From: Planctomycetales bacterium
GTDB lineage: Bacteria; Planctomycetota; Planctomycetia; Isosphaerales; Isosphaeraceae
Reading direction: 5' to 3'
Assembly: GCA_027449865.1 (NCBI GenBank)
Contig: DAIDKV010000084.1
Coordinates: 1-41,346, forward strand
Length of the DNA stretch: 41,346 bases
The notes under the pieces were generated by a model that made no database searches, was not told the DNA's origin, and worked only from the letters and a program-made list of their open reading frames with translations. Position numbers and translations under genes: made by a program. Each line of letters opens with the position of its first letter. The first letter of the stretch is position 1. Shown in pieces: positions 591 through 14,594 of this stretch.

Positions 591-1850
591 ATGGCGGATC
601 GGATCTTCATCGTCGGGCACTCTGCGGTCACCTGCCTGGGTCGCGACATGGACGCGACCTGGCGCGGGCTGGTCGAGGGCCGGTCGGGGATCCGTCGCCA
701 CGAGGCGCTGACGTCCGATTCGTATCTCCAGGATATCTGCGGGATTGTGGACGATTTCGGTCCGGGGACCGAGTCGGAAGATCCGGCCATCGCGAAGCTC
801 TCGGCGCGGTTCCTCCACCTCGGGATGGCCGCGGCGCGGGCGGCCTGGGCCGACGCGAAGCTCGACCGACCCGAAACGGGGCTCGACCCGCATCGGGCGG
901 CCGTCGTGATGGGATCGGCCTTCGGCGGGCTCGACCTGCTGGAGGTCGAGCAGGCCAAGATGGCCCGTCGCAAGAGCCTGGCCGTTAGCCCCTATCTCGT
1001 CCCGGCGATGATCATCAATCAGACGGCCGGGCAGGTCGCCCAGGCCCTCGGAATCTACGGACCCGGAGCCGCTCCGGCGAACGCCTGTGCCTCGGGCGGT
1101 CACGCCGTCGTGCTGGGGGCGATGTTCCTCCGGGCCGGCGAGGCTGACCTGGCGGTCTGCGGAGCCTCGGAAAGCGCCTTCACGCCGGCCGTTGTTAATG
1201 GGTTCGCCACGATGAAGGCCCTGCTCGGCAAAAAGGTCGGCGACCGGTCGGAGGCCGATCCCTCGCAGGCGAGTCGGCCGTTCAGCGGAGACCGCGCTGG
1301 GTTTGTCCTCGCCGAGGGCGCCGGGGCGATGGTCCTGGCGACCGAGGCGGCCGTCGATCGGCTCGGATTGAAGCCCCAGGCCGAACTCGTCGCCTGGGTG
1401 ACCAATCACGACGGTCACCACATGGCCATGCCCTGCCGAGACCGGATCACCCGGTGCCTGACCGAGGTTCTACGGCGAGGCGGGCTTGATCCATCGGACA
1501 TCGATTATTACAACGCCCATGGCACCAGCACGGTCCTGAACGACAAGGTGGAGACCGAGGTCTTGAAGGAGGTCTTCGGTGCGTCGGCCGCTCGGCTGCC
1601 GGTCAGCTCGATCAAGGGGGCGTTGGGGCACAGCCTCGGCGCGGCCTCGGCGATCGAGGCGGTGGTCTCCGTCCGGGCGCTGCGGGAGCAGGTCATCCCG
1701 CCGACGATCAACCATCGCCCTGATCCCGAACTCGACCTGGATTACGTCCCCGACCGGGCCCGCCCCGCCCGGCTCGATCGCGTGCTTTCCGCATCCTTCG
1801 GGTTCGGAGGCACCAACAACGCCCTGGTTCTCAGGAGGATCTCCGCATGA
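591..1850 (+). CDS. fabF: Beta-ketoacyl-ACP synthase II-type (FabF-like)
   Basis: Condensing enzyme of the thiolase fold that extends an acyl chain on an acyl carrier protein using malonyl-ACP. The 419 residues match the usual KAS II length. The triad is visible: Cys166 in ANACASGG, His310 in NAHGTST and His347 after the Lys342 motif SSIKGALGH; the glycine-rich GFGGTNN follows at 404-410. The start is set by AGGAGG at about 579-584. The gene overlaps the next one, an acyl carrier protein, by four bases (ATGA), and an acyltransferase follows, so the three probably act in one acyl-assembly route. Whether this is the housekeeping enzyme or a dedicated secondary-lipid synthase cannot be told here; the lack of fabD, fabG and fabH nearby favours a dedicated role. 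Confidence 0.93.
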   Translation: MADRIFIVGHSAVTCLGRDMDATWRGLVEGRSGIRRHEALTSDSYLQDICGIVDDFGPGTESEDPAIAKLSARFLHLGMAAARAAWADAKLDRPETGLDPHRAAVVMGSAFGGLDLLEVEQAKMARRKSLAVSPYLVPAMIINQTAGQVAQALGIYGPGAAPANACASGGHAVVLGAMFLRAGEADLAVCGASESAFTPAVVNGFATMKALLGKKVGDRSEADPSQASRPFSGDRAGFVLAEGAGAMVLATEAAVDRLGLKPQAELVAWVTNHDGHHMAMPCRDRITRCLTEVLRRGGLDPSDIDYYNAHGTSTVLNDKVETEVLKEVFGASAARLPVSSIKGALGHSLGAASAIEAVVSVRALREQVIPPTINHRPDPELDLDYVPDRARPARLDRVLSASFGFGGTNNALVLRRISA

Positions 1851-2122
1851 CACCGACCCTCACCGCCCCTTCTCTACTCGACGAGGTGGTCGACGTCATC
1901 CGCAAGGCGGCCAAGATCCCCGCGCGCGTGCCGATTGGGCCGGAGACGCGGTTGGTCGAGGACCTGGCGATCGACTCGCTAGACCTTGTTGGTCTGGTCC
2001 TCCAGCTTCAGGATGAATTTGACGTTGTCATCGAGGAGGATGATGTGCCAAACTTGTGCCGCGTCGCCGACCTGGCGTCGTACCTGGCCGATCGAAGGGA
2101 ATCGAACGGCCAGCCGGCTTGA
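1847..2122 (+). CDS. Acyl carrier protein
   Basis: A 91-residue acyl carrier protein. The phosphopantetheine attachment motif DSLDLVGL places the modified serine at residue 44, in the loop before helix II, and the acidic helix after it (QLQDEFDVVIEEDDVP) is typical of the recognition helix. It starts inside the end of the upstream synthase gene (ATGA overlap), implying translational coupling and that it is the carrier used by that synthase. It is somewhat longer than a standard ACP, with about ten extra residues at the N-terminus. A second carrier protein with the same DSLDLV core is encoded at 15306-15587, so this may be a pathway-specific ACP rather than the general AcpP. Confidence 0.92.
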   Translation: MTPTLTAPSLLDEVVDVIRKAAKIPARVPIGPETRLVEDLAIDSLDLVGLVLQLQDEFDVVIEEDDVPNLCRVADLASYLADRRESNGQPA

Positions 2123-2211
2123 GGTCCGACCGTCCCGTCGCGGTGGGGGCCATGCCCGGGGATGATCGGCCAAGAACGTACCGTCCGGGATCGGGCGTGA
2201 GGGAGTCGTCG

Positions 2212-3138
2212 ATGGAACGACGAGGGCTCAACATCCGCAAGGGCTTCCTGCGGTTCTGGCTGCCGATGATCCGGGCGTTCCCGCTGCCGCTGGCCTCGCG
2301 ATTTCTCTCGGGGTTCGGCCGGATGGAGTACCGGCTCTCGGGCCGGCTCCGGGGCGAGTTCCGCCAGGCGGTCGAGCGGGGTCAGGAGACGCTGGGTTGC
2401 CGGTGGGACGTCCACGGCGTCAGCCGGGAGCTGGCGGGGAATCACGTCCTCTGGCGGACGCGTGACCTGCTGCTCGACGGCGTGAAGGACGACCGCGCCC
2501 AGGGGATGTTCACGGTGGAGGGGCGCGAACACCTCGACGCGGCGCTCGCCGAGGGACGCGGCTGCCTGATGCTGGCGAGCCACTTCGGCGCCCACCTGCT
2601 GCCGGCGCACTGGCTCTTTCGGCAGGGGCTCCCGGTCCGTTTCTACATGGAGCGCCCGAGGCACATCTCGCGTTATCTTCAACGCCACTTCGCGACGGAT
2701 GGGCCGCTCGGTCAGGACAAGCTCTTCATCTCGCGGAAGGGCGCGGCGGCCGATTCGGCCAGCTCGATCCTCCGCGCCGCTAGGGCGATCAAGGCGGGGA
2801 TGATCCTTTATCTGGCGGGCGACGTCCGATGGACGGGCCAGCTCACCGAGTCGGCGACCTTCCTCGGTCGCGAGATGCGGTTCTCGACGACCTGGGTCGT
2901 CCTGGCCGCGATGACCGGGACGCCGGTGGTCATGGTCTTCTGCCGGATGGAGCCCGACGGCCGATACCACATCGAATTTCGGCCGGCGTTCCACGTTCCG
3001 AGAGACGCCGCCGAGAAGGGCGAAACCGGGCTCTGGGTGAAGCACTTCCTCGAAGTGCTGGAGGAGCAGGTCCGCCGATACCCCGAGAACAGCAACGATT
3101 ACTTCTTCTGGGGCGAGATGGAGAAGCAGTTGGCCTAG
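2212..3138 (+). CDS. LpxL/HtrB-like lysophospholipid acyltransferase
   Basis: A 308-residue member of the lipid A biosynthesis (lauroyl) acyltransferase superfamily, expected to work at the inner face of the membrane and move an acyl group from ACP to a lipid acceptor. Family-like blocks are GRGCLMLASHFGAHLLPAHW around residues 116-134 and the GGDVRWTG-like region near 205. The start at 2212 follows GAGGGAG; upstream in-frame ATGs at 2056 and 2152 would overlap or crowd the ACP gene and lack ribosome sites. The family's HX4(D/E) catalytic motif is imperfect: after His124 (HFGAHLL) the expected acidic residue is replaced by Leu. It sits directly after a synthase and an ACP, which would supply the donor thioester. 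Confidence 0.82.
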   Translation: MERRGLNIRKGFLRFWLPMIRAFPLPLASRFLSGFGRMEYRLSGRLRGEFRQAVERGQETLGCRWDVHGVSRELAGNHVLWRTRDLLLDGVKDDRAQGMFTVEGREHLDAALAEGRGCLMLASHFGAHLLPAHWLFRQGLPVRFYMERPRHISRYLQRHFATDGPLGQDKLFISRKGAAADSASSILRAARAIKAGMILYLAGDVRWTGQLTESATFLGREMRFSTTWVVLAAMTGTPVVMVFCRMEPDGRYHIEFRPAFHVPRDAAEKGETGLWVKHFLEVLEEQVRRYPENSNDYFFWGEMEKQLA

Positions 3139-3169: not shown

Positions 3170-4558
3170 ATGGCAAAGGACGCCCGGCGGACGTGGAAGG
3201 CAAGGCTCCGACGACAATGGCCCTGGCTGGTCCTTGTGGCCATGACCGTGATCCCGGCGGTCTGGCACGTCGTTGACTTCGACGAGGACATCGACCCCGA
3301 GTTCCCCAAGGTGGAGCGGCCGGCGTTCAGCCCGCTCCCTCCTGCGGCGTACCGGCTGGCCGAGCCGGGCGACACCCTCGACCGGGTCGAATTGTACCTC
3401 TCGGCGCTCGCCGTGGTGATGGCGGCCGGCGGTCTCGCGGCGGGCCGAAACCGTGGCTACTGGCCGGCCGGACTCGCGATCGCGACGGCCGCCCTCTGGT
3501 ACAGCGCCACCCCCGGCCCGACGTTTGACGGCTGGCACGGACTCGGCTGGCGGACCATGTTCGACCCCTCGGCGCCGGTGGCGCTTCGATGCGGGTTGAT
3601 GGTTGCTGCGTTCGCGGTGCTCGGGATCGTCGGGGCGTGCGTGTATCGACATCGATCGACGCTCCGCGAGGACTGGTCGGGGGCCTGGTCGCGACGGCCG
3701 GCGCAGCTCTGGGTTGCGGCGGTCGTGCTGGCGATCGGGCGGCAGTTCGATCTCCACGGCGTCGAGCCGGTGGGCTACTGGCCTCGGTGGTCGATGATCG
3801 CGGCGATCCTGGCGTTCGACCTCGGCCTGGCGATCGAACTGCCGCCTCGTCTGAGTTCAGGGCGATGGCGATGGGCGGTCGGGCTGATGGCGCTGCCGGT
3901 CTGGCTGGGGCTGGTGATGTTCGGGATCGCGGTGACCTGGTATCACCGTCCGCTCGCCCGGATGAAGGTGATCGAGCCCGGCCGGATCCTCATCAGCGCG
4001 ATGCCGACCCCCCGCGGCCTGGAGATCGCTCAGGCACGGCACCACTTCAAGACAATCGTGAACCTCTTCCCCGAGGACACACCGTTTCGCAGCCCGTATC
4101 ACGACGACGAGGTGAAGTTCGCCCGCGAGCACGGGATCAAATACGTCGGGGCGCCGTCGGACCCGTCGCTGGCGGAGTCGGACGCGTTCCTGAGTCAGAC
4201 GCTCGCCCTGGCGCGCGACCCGGATGCCTGGCCGATCCTGGTGCATTGCCACGGCTGCATGGACCGCACTCCGGCCTGGGCGGGAATCTATCGGTTCATC
4301 TACCAGGGACGCTCGCTCCTGGAAATCATGCGGGAGATCGAGCAGCATCGGGGATACCGTCCGAAGGGTTCGGTGACGCTGCTTTACAACCGGGTGCTGG
4401 CGCCTCGGGCGCCCGAACACTACCGGAGCGACCCGACCGCGACGGTCCTCCGCAAGTGCGCCGAGGGGACGATCGACCCGATGATCGGCCCGCCCCGCCA
4501 TCCAAGGGCGGTCGCCGCTCGACCCGAAGGCCAGGAGGCCGCCGCTCCGAAGCGATGA
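3170..4558 (+). CDS. Multipass membrane protein with C-terminal CX5R tyrosine/dual-specificity-type phosphatase domain
   Basis: A 462-residue protein with about seven hydrophobic segments (near residues 17-36, 75-92, 98-115, 138-158, 179-192, 207-223, 234-257), followed by a soluble domain from about 265. The domain carries the phosphatase loop HCHGCMDRTP, with nucleophile Cys360 and Arg366 (CX5R), and Asp331 29 residues earlier as a candidate general acid. Cysteine-based phosphatases of this class dephosphorylate proteins, inositides or phosphatidylglycerophosphate. The loop also resembles the CX5RT motif of Sac-type lipid phosphatases. Ribosome site: GGAAG about 11 bases upstream. It follows the acyltransferase by 31 bases and overlaps the next frame at its stop, so it probably belongs to the same operon. 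A lipid phosphate substrate is an inference from context. Confidence 0.75.
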   Translation: MAKDARRTWKARLRRQWPWLVLVAMTVIPAVWHVVDFDEDIDPEFPKVERPAFSPLPPAAYRLAEPGDTLDRVELYLSALAVVMAAGGLAAGRNRGYWPAGLAIATAALWYSATPGPTFDGWHGLGWRTMFDPSAPVALRCGLMVAAFAVLGIVGACVYRHRSTLREDWSGAWSRRPAQLWVAAVVLAIGRQFDLHGVEPVGYWPRWSMIAAILAFDLGLAIELPPRLSSGRWRWAVGLMALPVWLGLVMFGIAVTWYHRPLARMKVIEPGRILISAMPTPRGLEIAQARHHFKTIVNLFPEDTPFRSPYHDDEVKFAREHGIKYVGAPSDPSLAESDAFLSQTLALARDPDAWPILVHCHGCMDRTPAWAGIYRFIYQGRSLLEIMREIEQHRGYRPKGSVTLLYNRVLAPRAPEHYRSDPTATVLRKCAEGTIDPMIGPPRHPRAVAARPEGQEAAAPKR

Positions 4559-4575
4559 CACCCTGGAGGGACGCC

Positions 4576-5127
4576 ATGACCGCGTCAGTCCGCCGGAAGG
4601 TCACGATCCTGGACGCGATGATTTTGGTGGCGGCGATCGCGTGCGGATTTGCGCTTCGTAGGATCACGGACCCGGCCCTTGGCGACTTCGGGGCCTGGGA
4701 TGCAAACTGGCTGGGACGGGTCTCGGGCCAGTCCCTTGCCGAGGCGGTGCCGTTCCTGATGGCGCTGACCGTCGCCGTGCTGGCGATGCGGGTACGCCGC
4801 CCCCGCCCTCAATGGCGGAGGATCTTCCGCCAACCGGGGACAGCGGCGTGCGTCGCAGCGATCGTACCGCTCGCATCGGCCTGGTTGCAGTTCGCCTTCG
4901 CGGCCTGGAGGAATCCCGGATTTCTCGATCCGTTATCGGGGTCCGTCGATCTGCGACTGACCCAGGGTACGTTCCTCGCCGGCCTCTGGGTCCTGGCGTC
5001 CTGGCTGGCGCTGGCGATCAGCGGTCGGCGACGCCCCGAGCGGAGCCGGCTCGACAAGTTCGGGAGGCTCGTCGGACTCGGCTGGATCGTGGTCTGGGCT
5101 CTCGTCACGCTGGGCTCGATGTCCTGA
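4576..5127 (+). CDS. Small integral membrane protein, paralog of the next gene
   Basis: A 183-residue protein of unknown function with four or five hydrophobic segments. The start at 4576 is preceded by GGAGGGA (4564-4570) at good spacing; another in-frame ATG at 4555 overlaps the previous stop codon but has a poorer ribosome site. Motifs shared with the following gene: RRPRPQWRRIFRQPG, then AACVA, and a C-terminal RRRPERSRLDKFGRLVGLGW. A charged loop lies between the helices. No known family was recognised. Its place right after the membrane phosphatase and the shared-motif neighbour suggest a duplicated membrane component of the same cluster. Confidence 0.75.
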   Translation: MTASVRRKVTILDAMILVAAIACGFALRRITDPALGDFGAWDANWLGRVSGQSLAEAVPFLMALTVAVLAMRVRRPRPQWRRIFRQPGTAACVAAIVPLASAWLQFAFAAWRNPGFLDPLSGSVDLRLTQGTFLAGLWVLASWLALAISGRRRPERSRLDKFGRLVGLGWIVVWALVTLGSMS

Positions 5128-5146: not shown

Positions 5147-5845
5147 ATGAACGTCGGCCAGGCGACGGTTCGAAGACTCGATCGCCGGGACGGGCTGATC
5201 CTGATCCTGGCGCCGATCGTGGCGTTCGCGATTGGTCGCGTCTTTCCCGGTCCCACGATCGACGCGGGACAACTGCTGGCGCCCGCGATCCCCAGTCCTT
5301 CGGGGGTCGCGTCGCCGCTTCCTCCGACCTCTCTCGCCCTGCCGGCGCAGGGGGTCGAGGTCCCCTTGCCACCCATCCCTTCTGATAAGTCCGGGCATCT
5401 CTGGAGCACCTCACGACTCCTGCTCTCGGCGTGGTCGGCGGCCTTCCTGGTGATCCGATGGCGAAGGCCCCGACCGCCCTGGCGGAAGCTGGCGAGCCAG
5501 CCGGGGTTCGCGGCCTGCGGGTTCGGGACGCTCATTCTGACGGCGCAGCTCGGCGCCATCTTCCTCCGATGGGCGGCGATCTGGACCTGGACGGCGATCT
5601 GTTATCGGGCTCAGAATCATATCTGGATGTATTTCGTCCCGCGGTCACCGATCCAGATGCTGGGGATCTGGATTCGTCAGGGTTTTCTCGACTCCGCGGC
5701 GGCCGGTCACGCGATCGTGGCGACCTGGCTGATCATGCTCCTGGGCGGCTGGTGGCGTCCCGAGAAGAGCGGGATCGACCGCCTCGGCCGGGCCCTCGGC
5801 GCCGGCTGGATCGCCCTGATGGTCGCCGGCTTCTTCCTGGACTGA
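5147..5845 (+). CDS. Small integral membrane protein, second paralog
   Basis: A 232-residue hydrophobic protein related to the preceding one: it has RRPRPPWRKLASQPGFAAC where the neighbour has RRPRPQWRRIFRQPGTAAC, and WRPEKSGIDRLGRALGAGW where the neighbour has RRPERSRLDKFGRLVGLGW. It differs by a longer proline-rich loop after the first helix (about residues 45-80, probably outside the cytoplasm). Start ATG at 5147, preceded by GGGAAGGGG. Separated from its paralog by 19 bases, so co-transcribed. Function unknown; the pair looks like a tandem duplication that has diverged strongly. Confidence 0.75.
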   Translation: MNVGQATVRRLDRRDGLILILAPIVAFAIGRVFPGPTIDAGQLLAPAIPSPSGVASPLPPTSLALPAQGVEVPLPPIPSDKSGHLWSTSRLLLSAWSAAFLVIRWRRPRPPWRKLASQPGFAACGFGTLILTAQLGAIFLRWAAIWTWTAICYRAQNHIWMYFVPRSPIQMLGIWIRQGFLDSAAAGHAIVATWLIMLLGGWWRPEKSGIDRLGRALGAGWIALMVAGFFLD

Positions 5846-10272: not shown

Positions 10273-11433
10273 ATGCGACTGGCCGAGTTCATCCTCCAGA
10301 ACATGAGCGATATCCTGGCGGAGTGGGAGGCATTCGCCGCCACGCTGCTGCCGGCCGCGGGGAACATGACGTCGCTCGCCCTTCGCGATCACGCGCAGCA
10401 GATTCTGGAGGCCGTGGCGAGGGATCTGAACACTTTTCAGACGCGAGAGGCCCAGGCCGAGAAGGCTCAGGGGAGGGCCCCCAGGATCGCGAACGCGCCG
10501 GATACGGCCGCGCAGACCCACGCCGTCCTGCGGGCTCGAAGCGGATTCGACATCAACCAGCTCGTCGCCGAGTATCGGGCGCTGCGAGCCAGCGTCCTCC
10601 GGCTGTGGATCGATGCTAGCCCGATCGACCCGGCGGAGGTGGAGGACATGGTCCGCTTCAACGAGGCGATCGACCAGGCGGTCGCCGAGTCGGTCGGCCA
10701 CTTCCACGCCCTGGTGGAGCAGTCTCGCAACCTCCTGCTGGGAATGCTCGGGCACGACATGCGAAGCCCTCTCAACGCCATCGTAACGACAGGGTCCTAC
10801 CTGGCGGCCCTGAACGCTGGGGAGGACGTATCGACGGCGGCGGCCCGCCTGATCCGTTGCGGAGCGTCGATGCAGGCGCTACTCAACGACCTGGTGGACT
10901 TCAACCGAACGAAGCTGGGACTGGGCGTCAGAGTCCAGCCGTCCGAGATCGACCTCGCGGCGGTCGTCGCCGACGAACTGGAGCAATTGCGCGGCGCGTA
11001 CCCGGGCCGGCGAATTGAACTGGAAGTGACCGGCAACAGCCATGGCCGGTGGGACGGCGCCCGCTTGCAGCAGTTGGTCCGCAATCTCGTCTCGAATGCG
11101 ATCCGATATGGCTCTTCCGAAACGCCGATCCGCGTCTTGCTTCACGGCCAGGAGGCCAACCTTCGCCTGTCGGTCACAAACAGCGGGCCAACCATCCCTC
11201 CGTCGGTACTCGGACAGATCTTCGATCCGCTCAAGCGAGGCACCGCGCCAGGCGATGGTCGGGAAGGCCTTGGACTGGGGCTGTTCATCGTGCGTGAAAT
11301 CACCCTGGCGCACCACGGCGAGGTCCAGGTTTGTTCCGAGGGGGATGAGACGACCTTCGCCGTGAGCCTGCCCCGCCACGGATCCGAGAAGCCCCCCGGA
11401 TCGTCGCGCTCCTCGGGCGGCCCGCCCGCCTAA
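10273..11433 (+). CDS. Soluble sensor histidine kinase with RsbRD-like N-terminal domain
   Basis: A 386-residue kinase without transmembrane helices. Residues 1-110 form a helical domain (ILQNMSDILAEWEAFAATLL, LRDHAQQILEAVARDL) like the RsbRD-type N-terminus found on stress-response kinases. HisKA follows with phospho-acceptor His161 in GMLGHDMRSPLNAI. The ATPase domain has the N box NLVSNAIRYG (271-280) and G2 motif GLGLGLFIV (332-340), but the G1 motif reads NSG at 303-305 instead of DxG. Start ATG at 10273 after GGACGG. No response regulator is adjacent, so it is an orphan kinase. It has its own promoter, and its end overlaps the convergent next gene by four bases. Confidence 0.85.
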   Translation: MRLAEFILQNMSDILAEWEAFAATLLPAAGNMTSLALRDHAQQILEAVARDLNTFQTREAQAEKAQGRAPRIANAPDTAAQTHAVLRARSGFDINQLVAEYRALRASVLRLWIDASPIDPAEVEDMVRFNEAIDQAVAESVGHFHALVEQSRNLLLGMLGHDMRSPLNAIVTTGSYLAALNAGEDVSTAAARLIRCGASMQALLNDLVDFNRTKLGLGVRVQPSEIDLAAVVADELEQLRGAYPGRRIELEVTGNSHGRWDGARLQQLVRNLVSNAIRYGSSETPIRVLLHGQEANLRLSVTNSGPTIPPSVLGQIFDPLKRGTAPGDGREGLGLGLFIVREITLAHHGEVQVCSEGDETTFAVSLPRHGSEKPPGSSRSSGGPPA

Positions 11434-12413
11434 ACCATCCGTCCGAGCCGCTCGATACTTCGCACCAGGCCGGTCGCCACCGCCAAGGCATCCTCGAATC
11501 GGCGACCCTCGACGTAGTGCCATCGGACCCATCGTTCGCCGATAAGTAGGGCCGTCGAGGTCACGAAGGCCGGGATCGCCGCGGCCTCGTCGGGGGCGAG
11601 CGGGCGGACACACTCATACGCGGCCAGTGCCCCGGCCCGGGCAGCAGGAGCGTCGTCGAGCCAGTCGCCAATCAGTCGGGCCAGGTCGCACGCAACGCAA
11701 TCCATCCCCATCGCGCCGAAGTCGACCAGGCCCGTCACACGGTCGTCTTCGAAGAGAAAATGCTCGCCCCGGGCGTCGCGGAGACAGGGCTGCAACGGGA
11801 CTTCCCGACTCGCCGCCTCACGCGCCGGGCCCAGCAGGCGTGGTGCCATCCGACGAGCCAGCGCCAGCCATCGGATCGCCAGTGCACGCGTCGCGTCGGC
11901 GGTGATCGCCTGCTCCAGCTCGTCGAACCCGCCTCGGATCAGCCCGGCGATCGCCCCGGCCCGATCGGCCAGGCCCGGCGATCTCGCCCGGCGCCGGTCT
12001 CCAGCAAAACACCGGTGGAACGCCGCCAGCGCGGCGAACGCCGAGGCCACCCGGACCGGCGCCGGCGACCCTTCTGACTCCGAGACGCCGGGCATCCATC
12101 GGGAAAGCTCCCAGAGCCCCGACGCCGATTCCTGGAGCGTCGCACCCGATCGATCAGCGATCGGGACCGGGACAAACGGCAGGGCGCTCGCCCGATTGAG
12201 CCATCGATGGACCTGTTCCCGATGCGTCCGCCCCAGGCCGTCCGACGGCCAGAGCCTCAACACCATCGGCCCGCCCGGCGAGGAATACCGCCAGAGCCTC
12301 GACCCGCTCAGCCCCCCCGCGCCACCGAGCGGCTCGGGCGCGGAGGTCGGAGCGACCGCCGCCGGATACCGCGACAGAACCGCGAGCGATTCGGCCTCAA
12401 TCGAAAGCCCCAT
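11430..12413 (-). CDS. Aminoglycoside phosphotransferase/choline-kinase-fold protein
   Basis: A 327-residue protein of the APH fold. The late-domain motif is CLRDARGEHFLF at 210-221 followed by VTGLVDFGAMGMD at 226-238: the DFG-like metal-binding Asp231 is present, and Asp213 stands where the catalytic-loop aspartate is expected, but the usual HGDxxxxN is replaced by CLRDARGEH. Small-molecule kinase activity is therefore possible but not assured. Its start lies inside the end of the acyltransferase gene upstream (17-base overlap), which implies coupled expression. It is not evidence of antibiotic resistance; the family is broad. Confidence 0.75.
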   Translation of the reverse strand: MGLSIEAESLAVLSRYPAAVAPTSAPEPLGGAGGLSGSRLWRYSSPGGPMVLRLWPSDGLGRTHREQVHRWLNRASALPFVPVPIADRSGATLQESASGLWELSRWMPGVSESEGSPAPVRVASAFAALAAFHRCFAGDRRRARSPGLADRAGAIAGLIRGGFDELEQAITADATRALAIRWLALARRMAPRLLGPAREAASREVPLQPCLRDARGEHFLFEDDRVTGLVDFGAMGMDCVACDLARLIGDWLDDAPAARAGALAAYECVRPLAPDEAAAIPAFVTSTALLIGERWVRWHYVEGRRFEDALAVATGLVRSIERLGRMV

Positions 12414-13188
12414 CGCCGTCCTCCTCGGCGATCGCCCGCGCCTGGAGCTGCATCAGGGCCCGATGGAACCGGTCGCTCACCTCCGCCTGCACTGCCTTCT
12501 CGCCGGCGCGGTGCGGAGGGATGTCGGAGAGGTCAATCGGCGCGCCAAAGACCAGCCGGGCCCGCGAGGGCCTCACCATCGATTCGAGGATCTCGTTCGT
12601 CGGCGGCGTCCCCAGAATGTAAGCCGGGACCACCGGCACACCCGCCCGGATCGCCAGGTACGCACTCCCAGGCCGGATCGGACCCAGCCGCCGCCCCGAC
12701 TCGGGAACAATCGTTCCCTCCGGAAAGATCGGAACCACCCGACCCTCCCCCAGCGCCCGGAGGCCGGCACGGATCGCGGCCAGGTCGCGGCCGTCTCGAT
12801 TCACCGGGATGCAGCCGATGAACGCGCAGATCCTTTTTAGCCAGGGCAAATCGTAATATTCGCGGGCGATCATAAATCCCAGCAGCCGCCGACTGTTCGC
12901 CTGGAGCAGCACATGATCGATCCCGCAGGTGTGATTGGCGATCAGGATCGCCGGGCCCGAATCCGGCAGCGGTGCGTATCCGGACGCCCGAAGCTGATGC
13001 CAGAGCCCGCAATAGAGCCGGAACAAGCCGTGCATCCAGCGGAGCGGGCCCCGAATTTCCGGCATCGGCGGCGCCACCTCGCCCGAAAGGCCAGGTATCG
13101 CCAGCAAGATCGTCGTCGATGTGAGCAACATCAGGGAGATCATGGGGAGCGAAAATATCCAGGTGATGCCTTCCGGCCTCGTCGCCAC
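12397..13188 (-). CDS. 1-acyl-sn-glycerol-3-phosphate acyltransferase-type (PlsC family)
   Basis: A 263-residue membrane-associated acyltransferase. An N-terminal hydrophobic segment (about residues 9-33) is followed by the catalytic NHTCGID motif (HX4D: His86, Asp91), a substrate-binding VNRDGRD block and FPEGT at 155-159. The family transfers acyl chains to lysophosphatidic acid or related glycerolipids. It precedes and overlaps the phosphotransferase-fold gene, so the pair may modify the same lipid head group or acceptor; that link is inference. A third acyl-handling locus in the window besides the synthase cluster and the lone ACP. Confidence 0.85.
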   Translation of the reverse strand: MATRPEGITWIFSLPMISLMLLTSTTILLAIPGLSGEVAPPMPEIRGPLRWMHGLFRLYCGLWHQLRASGYAPLPDSGPAILIANHTCGIDHVLLQANSRRLLGFMIAREYYDLPWLKRICAFIGCIPVNRDGRDLAAIRAGLRALGEGRVVPIFPEGTIVPESGRRLGPIRPGSAYLAIRAGVPVVPAYILGTPPTNEILESMVRPSRARLVFGAPIDLSDIPPHRAGEKAVQAEVSDRFHRALMQLQARAIAEEDGDGAFD

Positions 13189-13280
13189 TTTATCCTAACA
13201 CACGCGGTGCATCGGCGACCGGATGGTTCGCCTGGGCCGAGGTGCGGAGCAGGGATGGGAAGGAAGCGGAGGGAGTTTCG

Positions 13281-13370
13281 GATTTCCGATTCAAGATTCA
13301 AGATTTCAGAACCAACATTCAAGATTCGCCCAGGATTCAAAATCCCAGATGGAGGATTTCAAATTTCTCT
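13281..13370. repeat. Cluster of degenerate GATTCAA direct repeats
   Basis: Short imperfect copies of GATTCAAGATT recur between the metalloprotease 3' end and the acyltransferase 5' end: at 13288-13303, 13317-13327, 13334-13344 and 13355-13365. The stretch is AT-rich against its surroundings. One copy, GGATTCAAAATCC (13333-13345), folds on itself. Such degenerate runs are common in planctomycete intergenic DNA; role unknown, possibly transcription termination. Confidence 0.5.
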
Positions 13371-13400
13371 GGCCACTTCGATGACATATTACACAAGAGC

Positions 13401-14594
13401 TCAGGCCGAAGGACGCGTGGATCGACGGCGGTACATCACCAGTCCGCCCATCACACCGAGGGCCCACATCGCGACCGTCGCCGGCTCGGGAGCAATCGTC
13501 TGGTCCCCCTCGACACGCACCCCGCCCGGGTTCAATGTCTCGGCCCCAACCCCGCCGACCGTCGTGCTCCCGCTGAGCGTCCCATACTGACTCGCCAGCA
13601 ACAACTGCGTCGCGTTCGGTCCGAACTGCATGTTCGGATTGATCAGCGACGACCAGTTCGCCGAGGCCGCATCCACATAGTTTCCACCATCCGGATGATA
13701 GCCAATCCCAAACGCGTGCATCATTTCGTGAGAAACATTGTGGGCGATGGCCCAGGCCAGGTCGGTGGGATTGTTGGCGTAGTTAAGCTTGTCGATGAAG
13801 CTGAAGCCGTTGCCACCGACATCCGTAATTCCAATCGCGGAGGGGTTGGGGGCGTAAGAAAGGCCCGAGGCCACGCTGATCGTATGCAGAGCGGGTGTGT
13901 TCGGATCGGTCGTGACCGTGGGGTTCATCCCGGAGATCTGATAGGTGTGCTGGACGTCCTGAAGGACCGTCTGGACAAAATTCGCCTGCTGCTGGGCGTT
14001 GGGAACACCGCCGAAGGCCTGGATCGCCGCCGGGCTATCATACCAGGGCTGGGCGGTTCCGGTCGTCAGACCCGAGGCCGAGGGGAACGGGCCCGACGTC
14101 ATGTTCAGGTAGACATTCGCCGGGGCCTGGCCGACGGAAGGCATCGGCATCGAAACGATCGGCGTCGAGACCGGCATCGAGACCGGCATGGCCATCGTGG
14201 ACATGGTCGACATCGAGACCGGCGCCGCGATAACCGCCGGAGCATCGGAGGGTACCGAGATGGGCGTGGAAGGCATCGCGATCATCGGCGAGTTCGACCC
14301 GGCGATGATCGGCGTGATCGGAGCCGGTGCGGGGATCGCGACCGGGACCGGCGCGGGTGGAGCCGGCGAAGGGATCGAGACCGGCAGAGGGGCAGGGGCC
14401 GGTGCCGGGGCGGGGGCCGGTGCTGGGGTCGAGGCGCCCTGGTAGGTGTTGATCGCTCCGGCCGACCACACCATGGTCCAGAGTCGCTGGGCCTCGGCCC
14501 GGCTGATGCCATCCCCCCGCGCTGGCGACGTCACCAGCAAGGCAAGCCCGGTCCAGACGGCCACGACACTCGCCAGGGACTTGACGGCCGACAT
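13401..14594 (-). CDS. Exported metzincin-type metalloprotease with PEP-CTERM sorting tail
   Basis: A 397-residue secreted protein. Signal peptide at 1-27 (ends SPARG); proline/alanine-rich tract (about 55-98), then a methionine/serine-rich tract (about 104-152). The zinc-binding metzincin motif HEMMHAFGIGYH is at 289-300 with all three histidines and the catalytic Glu290. A PEP-CTERM signal closes the protein: PEP at 369-371, a hydrophobic helix, then RRR. The last signal is normally recognised by an exosortase, which is not in this window. The start at 14594 follows AGGAGG with six-base spacing; upstream in-frame ATG codons lack a site. Likely cell-envelope or biofilm-matrix protease; the substrate is unknown. 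Confidence 0.85.
   Translation of the reverse strand: MSAVKSLASVVAVWTGLALLVTSPARGDGISRAEAQRLWTMVWSAGAINTYQGASTPAPAPAPAPAPAPLPVSIPSPAPPAPVPVAIPAPAPITPIIAGSNSPMIAMPSTPISVPSDAPAVIAAPVSMSTMSTMAMPVSMPVSTPIVSMPMPSVGQAPANVYLNMTSGPFPSASGLTTGTAQPWYDSPAAIQAFGGVPNAQQQANFVQTVLQDVQHTYQISGMNPTVTTDPNTPALHTISVASGLSYAPNPSAIGITDVGGNGFSFIDKLNYANNPTDLAWAIAHNVSHEMMHAFGIGYHPDGGNYVDAASANWSSLINPNMQFGPNATQLLLASQYGTLSGSTTVGGVGAETLNPGGVRVEGDQTIAPEPATVAMWALGVMGGLVMYRRRSTRPSA

Follow-up and report, generated by a model that had tools for sequence, protein, structure and literature searches.

The window, by which we mean the whole 41,346-nucleotide stretch of planctomycete DNA that was analysed, carries near its beginning, on the forward strand, a FabF-like ketoacyl-ACP synthase (KS) gene (591..1850; PF00109/PF02801), an acyl carrier protein (ACP) gene (1847..2122; PF00550) and an LpxL-like acyltransferase gene (2056..3138; PF03279, E 1.2e-15), the last of which is a conserved neighbour of the gene studied here and agrees with the original prediction that this gene is placed after a lipid acyltransferase. 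The true start of the acyltransferase is probably near 2212, because most matches, those of its closest relatives aside, start at residues 16-56. The gene of interest starts 31 bp after the acyltransferase gene (3170..4558, forward strand; 462 amino acids, ATG start), and its conserved catalytic residues and fold prediction mark it as a putative membrane-anchored phosphatase of the DSP fold. Its product comprises an N-terminal region of seven transmembrane (TM) segments (residues 1-257, 3170..3940 +), delimited by averaged hydropathy and AlphaFold helices, and a DSP-type phosphatase domain (residues ~258-420, 3941..4429 +), delimited by PF03162 and fold match; the domain contains the P-loop HCHGCMDRTP (residues 359-368, 4244..4273 +), with C360 as predicted nucleophile, R366 as predicted phosphate-binding residue and D365 as candidate general acid. 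Right after the phosphatase lie two small multi-TM ORFs (4543-5127 and 5147-5845, both +), neither of which matched a Pfam family above cut-off, and the first of which probably starts at an ATG overlapping the phosphatase stop codon; among loci L032-L062, relatives of the two were seen only in L033 and L062, where they replace the aminotransferase-lptFG genes of other genera.

Our alignment comprises 33 sequences, one of them from the window itself (that of L006 is incomplete, that of L009 is truncated at a contig edge, and the split orthologues of genomes G020, G031 and G035 were omitted), and gave the loop consensus HCH[GA][CSN][MQ]DR[TS]PxW, with H359, C360, H361, D365, R366, P368, W370 and G372 invariant in 33/33. 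The CX5R[ST] P-loop of the Cys-based PTP/DSP superfamily is therefore present, and the motif, with the Cys360 and Arg366 that had been singled out in the original prediction, lies at the residues expected, both being invariant. The same prediction had described an 'HCxxG start', which did not hold: Gly lies at C+2, whereas the canonical position, C+3, is residue 363 (C in 24, S in 7 and N in 2 sequences), so that the Gly of the canonical DSP P-loop HCxxGxxR is absent from all 33. Its 'CMDRT end' was right in its letters, although residue 367 is T in 18 sequences and S in the other 15 (T or S in 33/33). HCx5R[TS] was found once across the six frames of the window, and when the protein was shuffled 20,000 times this pattern appeared in 0.155% of the shuffles, HCx4DR[TS] in 0.015% and CxxCxDR[TS] in none. 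Among related planctomycete DSP domains with the motif, Gly stands at C+3 in 26/27 and Asp directly before the P-loop Arg in 10/27 (the tree of DSP domains contained 12 of the 33 sequences and, since L080 has no motif and was dropped, 27 out of 28 outside domains); because Asp-Arg is also found in these other domains, a Sac-like 'CMDRT' does not have to imply descent from Sac phosphatases.

The best Pfam match of the protein was Y_phosphatase2 (PF03162; E 1.2e-4, 22.1 bits), below the gathering score of 27; the orthologue in L043 scored 30.9, above it, and PF03162 was matched by 13/13 family sequences at E<=0.1 (best 7.6e-9). A 13-sequence profile searched against the PDB found Siw14 at E 1.5e-9, with the next matches starting from 4.7e-5 and including TpbA (7.1e-5) and At1g05000. 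NCBIfam gave no match for the phosphatase protein at E<=1 and PHROGs gave none, and the plasmid collection searched held partial DSP matches only (5 records). From an input of 13 sequences, the best AlphaFold (AF2) model reached a mean pLDDT of 72.6 and a pTM of 0.66 (mean pLDDT of the remaining four, 63.4 to 55.1), and the loops in it that hold conserved residues (31-65, 116-125, 198-201 and 394-397) mostly had a pLDDT <50. The modelled P-loop consists of a strand (356-359), a loop (360-365) and a helix (366-379), and its geometry is thus kept as far as secondary structure tells. The predicted model matched AtPFA-DSP1 (Z 13.7, rmsd 3.2 Å, 148 residues), Tk-PTP (Z 13.0, rmsd 2.5 Å, 139 residues), Siw14 (Z 12.9, rmsd 2.9 Å, 143 residues) and PTPMT1 (Z 12.6, rmsd 3.6 Å, 151 residues), rows that differ by <1 Z being counted as tied; TpbA was a further fold match (E 9.6e-4). 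Profile and predicted fold agree that the domain is a DSP, with Siw14/PFA-DSP as its nearest group. A comparison with PTPMT1, Sac1 and DSP folds had been proposed at the outset, and the model matched DSP folds, PTPMT1 among them.

The P-loop motif of Sac phosphoinositide phosphatases is CLDCLDRT, with which the loop here shares the letters CxDRT, having Cys at C+3 and Asp at C+5. At E<=1 Pfam, whose library presumably includes a Sac model, gave no Sac family, and the PDB profile search gave none either; Sac phosphatases have no detectable sequence relation to the protein, for which a DSP fold is predicted instead. The loop also has the C-x5-R-[TS] given as the Sac catalytic motif in PMC9436410, a pattern general to such phosphatases and hence weak evidence for Sac. 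Further against a Sac-type phosphoinositide phosphatase, the Cys at C+3 is replaced in 9/33 sequences, D-R-T arises in other planctomycete DSPs, and the loop has few basic residues, the number of which is described as critical for poly-phosphoinositide activity in PMC3091653. We therefore rejected Sac membership on sequence profiles and predicted fold and consider it very improbable indeed (missing Sac, MTM and INPP4 entries among the VIA rows were not counted as evidence). What survives of the original Sac comparison is the resemblance of letters in the P-loop; the domain itself goes, by profile and predicted fold, with Siw14/PFA-DSP.

The likeness to Siw14/PFA-DSP (PF03162; AtPFA-DSP1) covers the best profile match, the top fold matches (~residues 255-416) and the Cys-Arg P-loop, and that group is likewise without a WPD catalytic acid; in our alignment the WPD acid zone (residues 315-349) holds no invariant Asp or Glu, D331 being present in 21/33. 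In PMC9038691, the AtPFA-DSP1 P-loop residues K151, R152, K154, H155 and R156 are said to bind inositol pyrophosphate, and the enzyme is proposed to act without an amino-acid general acid. The first four of these positions correspond here to H361, G362, M364 and D365 (numbering of AtPFA-DSP1 after the same paper), and across the 33 sequences the basic PP-InsP-binding P-loop residues of PFA-DSP are absent, being H361, G/A362, M/Q364 and D365, so that a polyphosphate substrate appears unlikely. Also unlike Siw14/PFA-DSP, the protein has seven TM helices fused to the domain, is predicted to be extracytoplasmic and is family-specific in bacteria. The MptpB-type atypical lipid phosphatases, as PMC3091653 describes them, have the signature HCXXGKDR[TA]G and no WPD motif, and their Asp before the P-loop Arg is important in catalysis and the proposed general acid. 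The Asp before Arg is common to both (here in 33/33), whereas three other signature residues differ in the present loop (Gly to Cys363, Lys to Met364 and the trailing Gly to Pro368); unlike the MptpB type, moreover, the protein here matches PF03162 and is membrane-anchored. Because no invariant acid is found where the WPD Asp would be, we infer that D365 acts as the general acid; it is not the sole candidate, since D350, 10 residues before C360, is conserved in at least 90% of the sequences.

Of the 37 genomes searched in the family to which the window belongs (f1), 36 have an orthologue, split over two contigs in four of them (G003, G020, G031 and G035), and the sole genome without one (G021) is 77% complete. 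We take f1 to be Isosphaeraceae, because the named relatives of the protein include Isosphaeraceae MAGs, Aquisphaera insulae and Tautonia sociabilis. When 22 genomes from the class's other families were searched, the matches listed included no full-length copy (best E 4.4e-12) and started at residue 202 or beyond, inside the C-terminal domain or a little ahead of it; in a profile search of 294 genomes of the phylum, 54 matched at E<=1e-6, full-length only in two own-family genomes among the matches listed. In titles and abstract openings of the literature on DSP-type lipid A phosphatases, planctomycete PGP phosphatases and Isosphaeraceae lipids, we recognised no description of this protein. 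The protein is real, conserved and family-specific; its phosphatase group is known, whereas its architecture and its P-loop variant are new.

Near-universality in the family (36/37) is also what would be expected of a housekeeping enzyme, and the main rival explanation, which we judge unlikely, holds that the protein is the family's missing phosphatidylglycerophosphate (PGP) phosphatase, in place of PgpA, PgpB or PTPMT1. PgpA (PF04608) was found in 0/32 family genomes (control rings, 4/14) and the YqeG/PgpC-type TIGR01668 above cut-off in 0/32; a PTPMT1-like protein (PDB 3rgo, E 2e-21) is strong in 4/4 genomes of family f5 (the genome that supplied the query counts among the four), against at best E 2e-14, or no match, in the 37 f1 genomes; and PTPMT1 is among the fold matches listed above. 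On the other side, sub-cut-off HAD matches to TIGR01668 occur in 32/32 family genomes, and the window's own genome has one PAP2 protein. Families f2, f3, f4, f6 and f7 are also without either a strong PTPMT1-like match (best 2.8e-9) or a full-length copy of the protein, so that some other PGP phosphatase seems present in the class; this and the PAP2 protein weaken the argument for PGP; moreover, the orientation predicted is extracytoplasmic, and the genes nearby have to do with LPS, not with phospholipids. PTPMT1 itself shares the predicted DSP fold and the suggested membrane-lipid substrate, but planctomycete PTPMT1-like proteins, which occur in another family, have the P-loop HCKAGRARS, different from HCHGCMDRTP, and the PTPMT1 chains present in the PDB set were not matched by the protein or its profile at E<=1. 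The PTPMT1 of R. baltica has reportedly been the subject of earlier published work. Were the protein a PGP phosphatase instead, it would fill a missing step in Isosphaeraceae.

The 'about seven' TM segments of the original prediction were recovered in the averaged data: hydropathy of the single sequence showed five clear hydrophobic regions, while averaging over 33 sequences gave seven segments, of which the third is weak (peak 1.21); seven helices also appear in two AlphaFold models. Lys/Arg density was higher in the predicted cytoplasmic loops in 32/32 sequences with all loops, and we infer from this a cytoplasmic N-terminus and an extracytoplasmic phosphatase domain. Judged by charge in the same way, residues 258-275 after TM7, with a net charge of +2.6, favour the cytoplasm, against the predicted topology; TM3 is weak, and if it does not cross the membrane the topology is flipped. 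With segment borders set by hand, columns conserved at >=97% number 4/32, 4/23 and 2/13 in the predicted outer loops (~37-68, 114-136 and 192-204), 0/16, 0/7, 0/18 and 0/10 in the N-terminus and inner loops, and 1, 2, 0, 0, 1, 0 and 1 in TM1 to TM7; outside the TM helices of the N-terminal region, such columns thus all lie in the three predicted extracytoplasmic loops. The N-terminal TM region alone gave no confident fold (Foldseek best E 0.35; VIA best, a GPCR with Z 6.5, rmsd 4.3 Å and 143 residues, within the helical-bundle range). A periplasmic protein phosphatase of the TpbA type, regulating an envelope protein and having its lipid neighbours by accident, would fit the appearance of TpbA among both the PDB sequence matches and the fold matches; we nevertheless regard it as distinctly unlikely, given that seven TM helices with conserved extracytoplasmic loops exceed what an anchor needs and that the lipid/LPS synteny recurs.

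The phosphatase and the acyltransferase are both restricted to their own family in the genomes searched. The acyltransferase gene lies <=350 bp from the phosphatase in 26/36 genomes and elsewhere in 9, and none was seen in G014, where the phosphatase match starts at a contig edge (in this count, G015 enters with a tandem second acyltransferase copy, the better-scoring copy being one gene further, 1.1 kb away, and G003 and G031 enter with the phosphatase fragment on the acyltransferase's contig). Phosphatase, aminotransferase, lptF and lptG are consecutive in 15/27 loci, the window not counted, these loci having been picked for long flanks or contigs and not at random; of eight acyltransferase regions apart from the phosphatase, six (L093-L098) keep acyltransferase-aminotransferase-lptF-lptG, one (L099) has the acyltransferase alone and one (L100) has KS-ACP-acyltransferase. 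Over-cut-off LptF/LptG matches sit in one place per genome (32/32), and this place is <2 kb from the phosphatase in 14/26 genomes with both located; in the other 12, among them the window's own genome, it lies elsewhere. Both LpxC and LpxK occur in 32/32 family genomes, so we expect their lipid A to carry a phosphate added by a kinase; the outer-membrane protein LptD is reported in PMC3422733 from the planctomycete genomes published at that time. The neighbouring KS-ACP-LpxL-like acyltransferase set resembles by analogy the AcpXL/FabF-XL/LpxXL very-long-chain lipid A acyl genes of rhizobia, a cluster in which we know of no phosphatase. This synteny support is guilt by association, the acyltransferase and lptFG lying apart from the phosphatase in part of the genomes and the window itself having, downstream of the phosphatase, membrane ORFs with no Pfam assignment.

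The block carries its own KS, ACP, acyltransferase and aminotransferase, from which one might suppose that the substrate is not lipid A but a polyprenyl-linked or other envelope lipid made by these genes (the undecaprenyl phosphate carrier or an aminolipid precursor). Relocated phosphatases do follow an Acyl_transf_3-type gene in three loci (L040, L049 and L053; Pfam was run on two), but the intact block is closed by lptFG and not by a polyprenyl gene, and nothing in it is specific for such a lipid; we think this substrate improbable.

That the protein is a membrane-embedded lipid phosphatase, as first suggested, is plausible, and the synteny with lipid and LPS-export genes gives it support. 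Because of its acyl-chain and LPS-export neighbours, its predicted extracytoplasmic placement and its loss of polyphosphate-binding residues, we favour an integral membrane phosphatase specific to Isosphaeraceae, acting outside the cytoplasm on an envelope lipid, most likely lipid A/LPS or a related one, a reading to which we would give a little less than an even chance. Its narrower form, a DSP-fold, Cys-based lipid A (LPS) phosphatase that works in the periplasm beside LptFG with an MptpB/Sac-like in-loop Asp as acid and replaces the PAP2-type LpxE/LpxF in one family, is rather doubtful. The role proposed in that form is the one shared with the lipid A phosphatases LpxE and LpxF, which are members of the PAP2 superfamily; the protein here had no match to the PAP2 domain (PF01569) at E<=1. 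A PAP2-DSP fusion such as E. coli YnbD was ruled out for the same lack of a PAP2 match.

For the envelope-lipid phosphatase we envisage the following scheme; the motif and its conservation, the DSP homology, the fold prediction, the synteny and the loop charges come from computation, and the activity, topology, general acid and substrate are proposals. Seven TM helices (N-in) would anchor the Siw14/PFA-DSP-like Cys domain on the outer side of the inner membrane, where the conserved extracytoplasmic loops and a membrane-proximal P261/R264 stretch may together bind the lipid headgroup next to the P-loop. C360 would attack the phosphate to give a phosphocysteine, R366 and the loop amides would bind the phosphate, and D365, within the P-loop, would protonate the leaving group, a role already proposed for the Asp of MptpB and relatives. 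The substrate would most probably be a monophosphorylated envelope lipid at the periplasmic leaflet, either lipid A/LPS core or the lipid of the neighbouring KS-ACP-acyltransferase genes, dephosphorylated before or during LptFG export. If this is true, a planctomycete family trims envelope-lipid phosphate with a Cys phosphatase whose group is chiefly associated with inositol pyrophosphate turnover, which would be a new enzyme class in LPS remodelling, a testable handle on planctomycete envelope chemistry and a further case of a P-loop Asp replacing the WPD acid.

Several arrangements of the phosphatase gene and its surroundings were seen besides. In five genomes (G010, G018, G027, G032 and G036) and in locus L042, the relocated phosphatase sits directly behind a kinase-like gene (upstream at L050:8044-8904, L039:4988-5953 and L042:4938-5864), whose best NCBIfam matches are PRK12274/PRK09188, far below the cut-offs, and which matches Kdo kinase more weakly (E 0.009 for one neighbour and 2e-4 for a copy elsewhere); the two genes are possibly a kinase-phosphatase pair, and their arrangement in the five genomes counts in favour of the envelope-lipid reading. 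In L047 (7540-10377, reverse strand; genome G005) the phosphatase and a PLP aminotransferase share one open frame of 946 amino acids, possibly a natural phosphatase-aminotransferase fusion, and in L052 (6908-8889; G015) a tandem pair of LpxL-like acyltransferase genes precedes the phosphatase. About 7 kb downstream of the phosphatase, the window carries on its reverse strand (11433-13928) an APH-like kinase, a PlsC-cluster ORF and a third ORF of a PEP-CTERM-like cluster; in relatives such as L043 and L044 these ORFs are found beyond the KS gene, so that this region is rearranged in the window.
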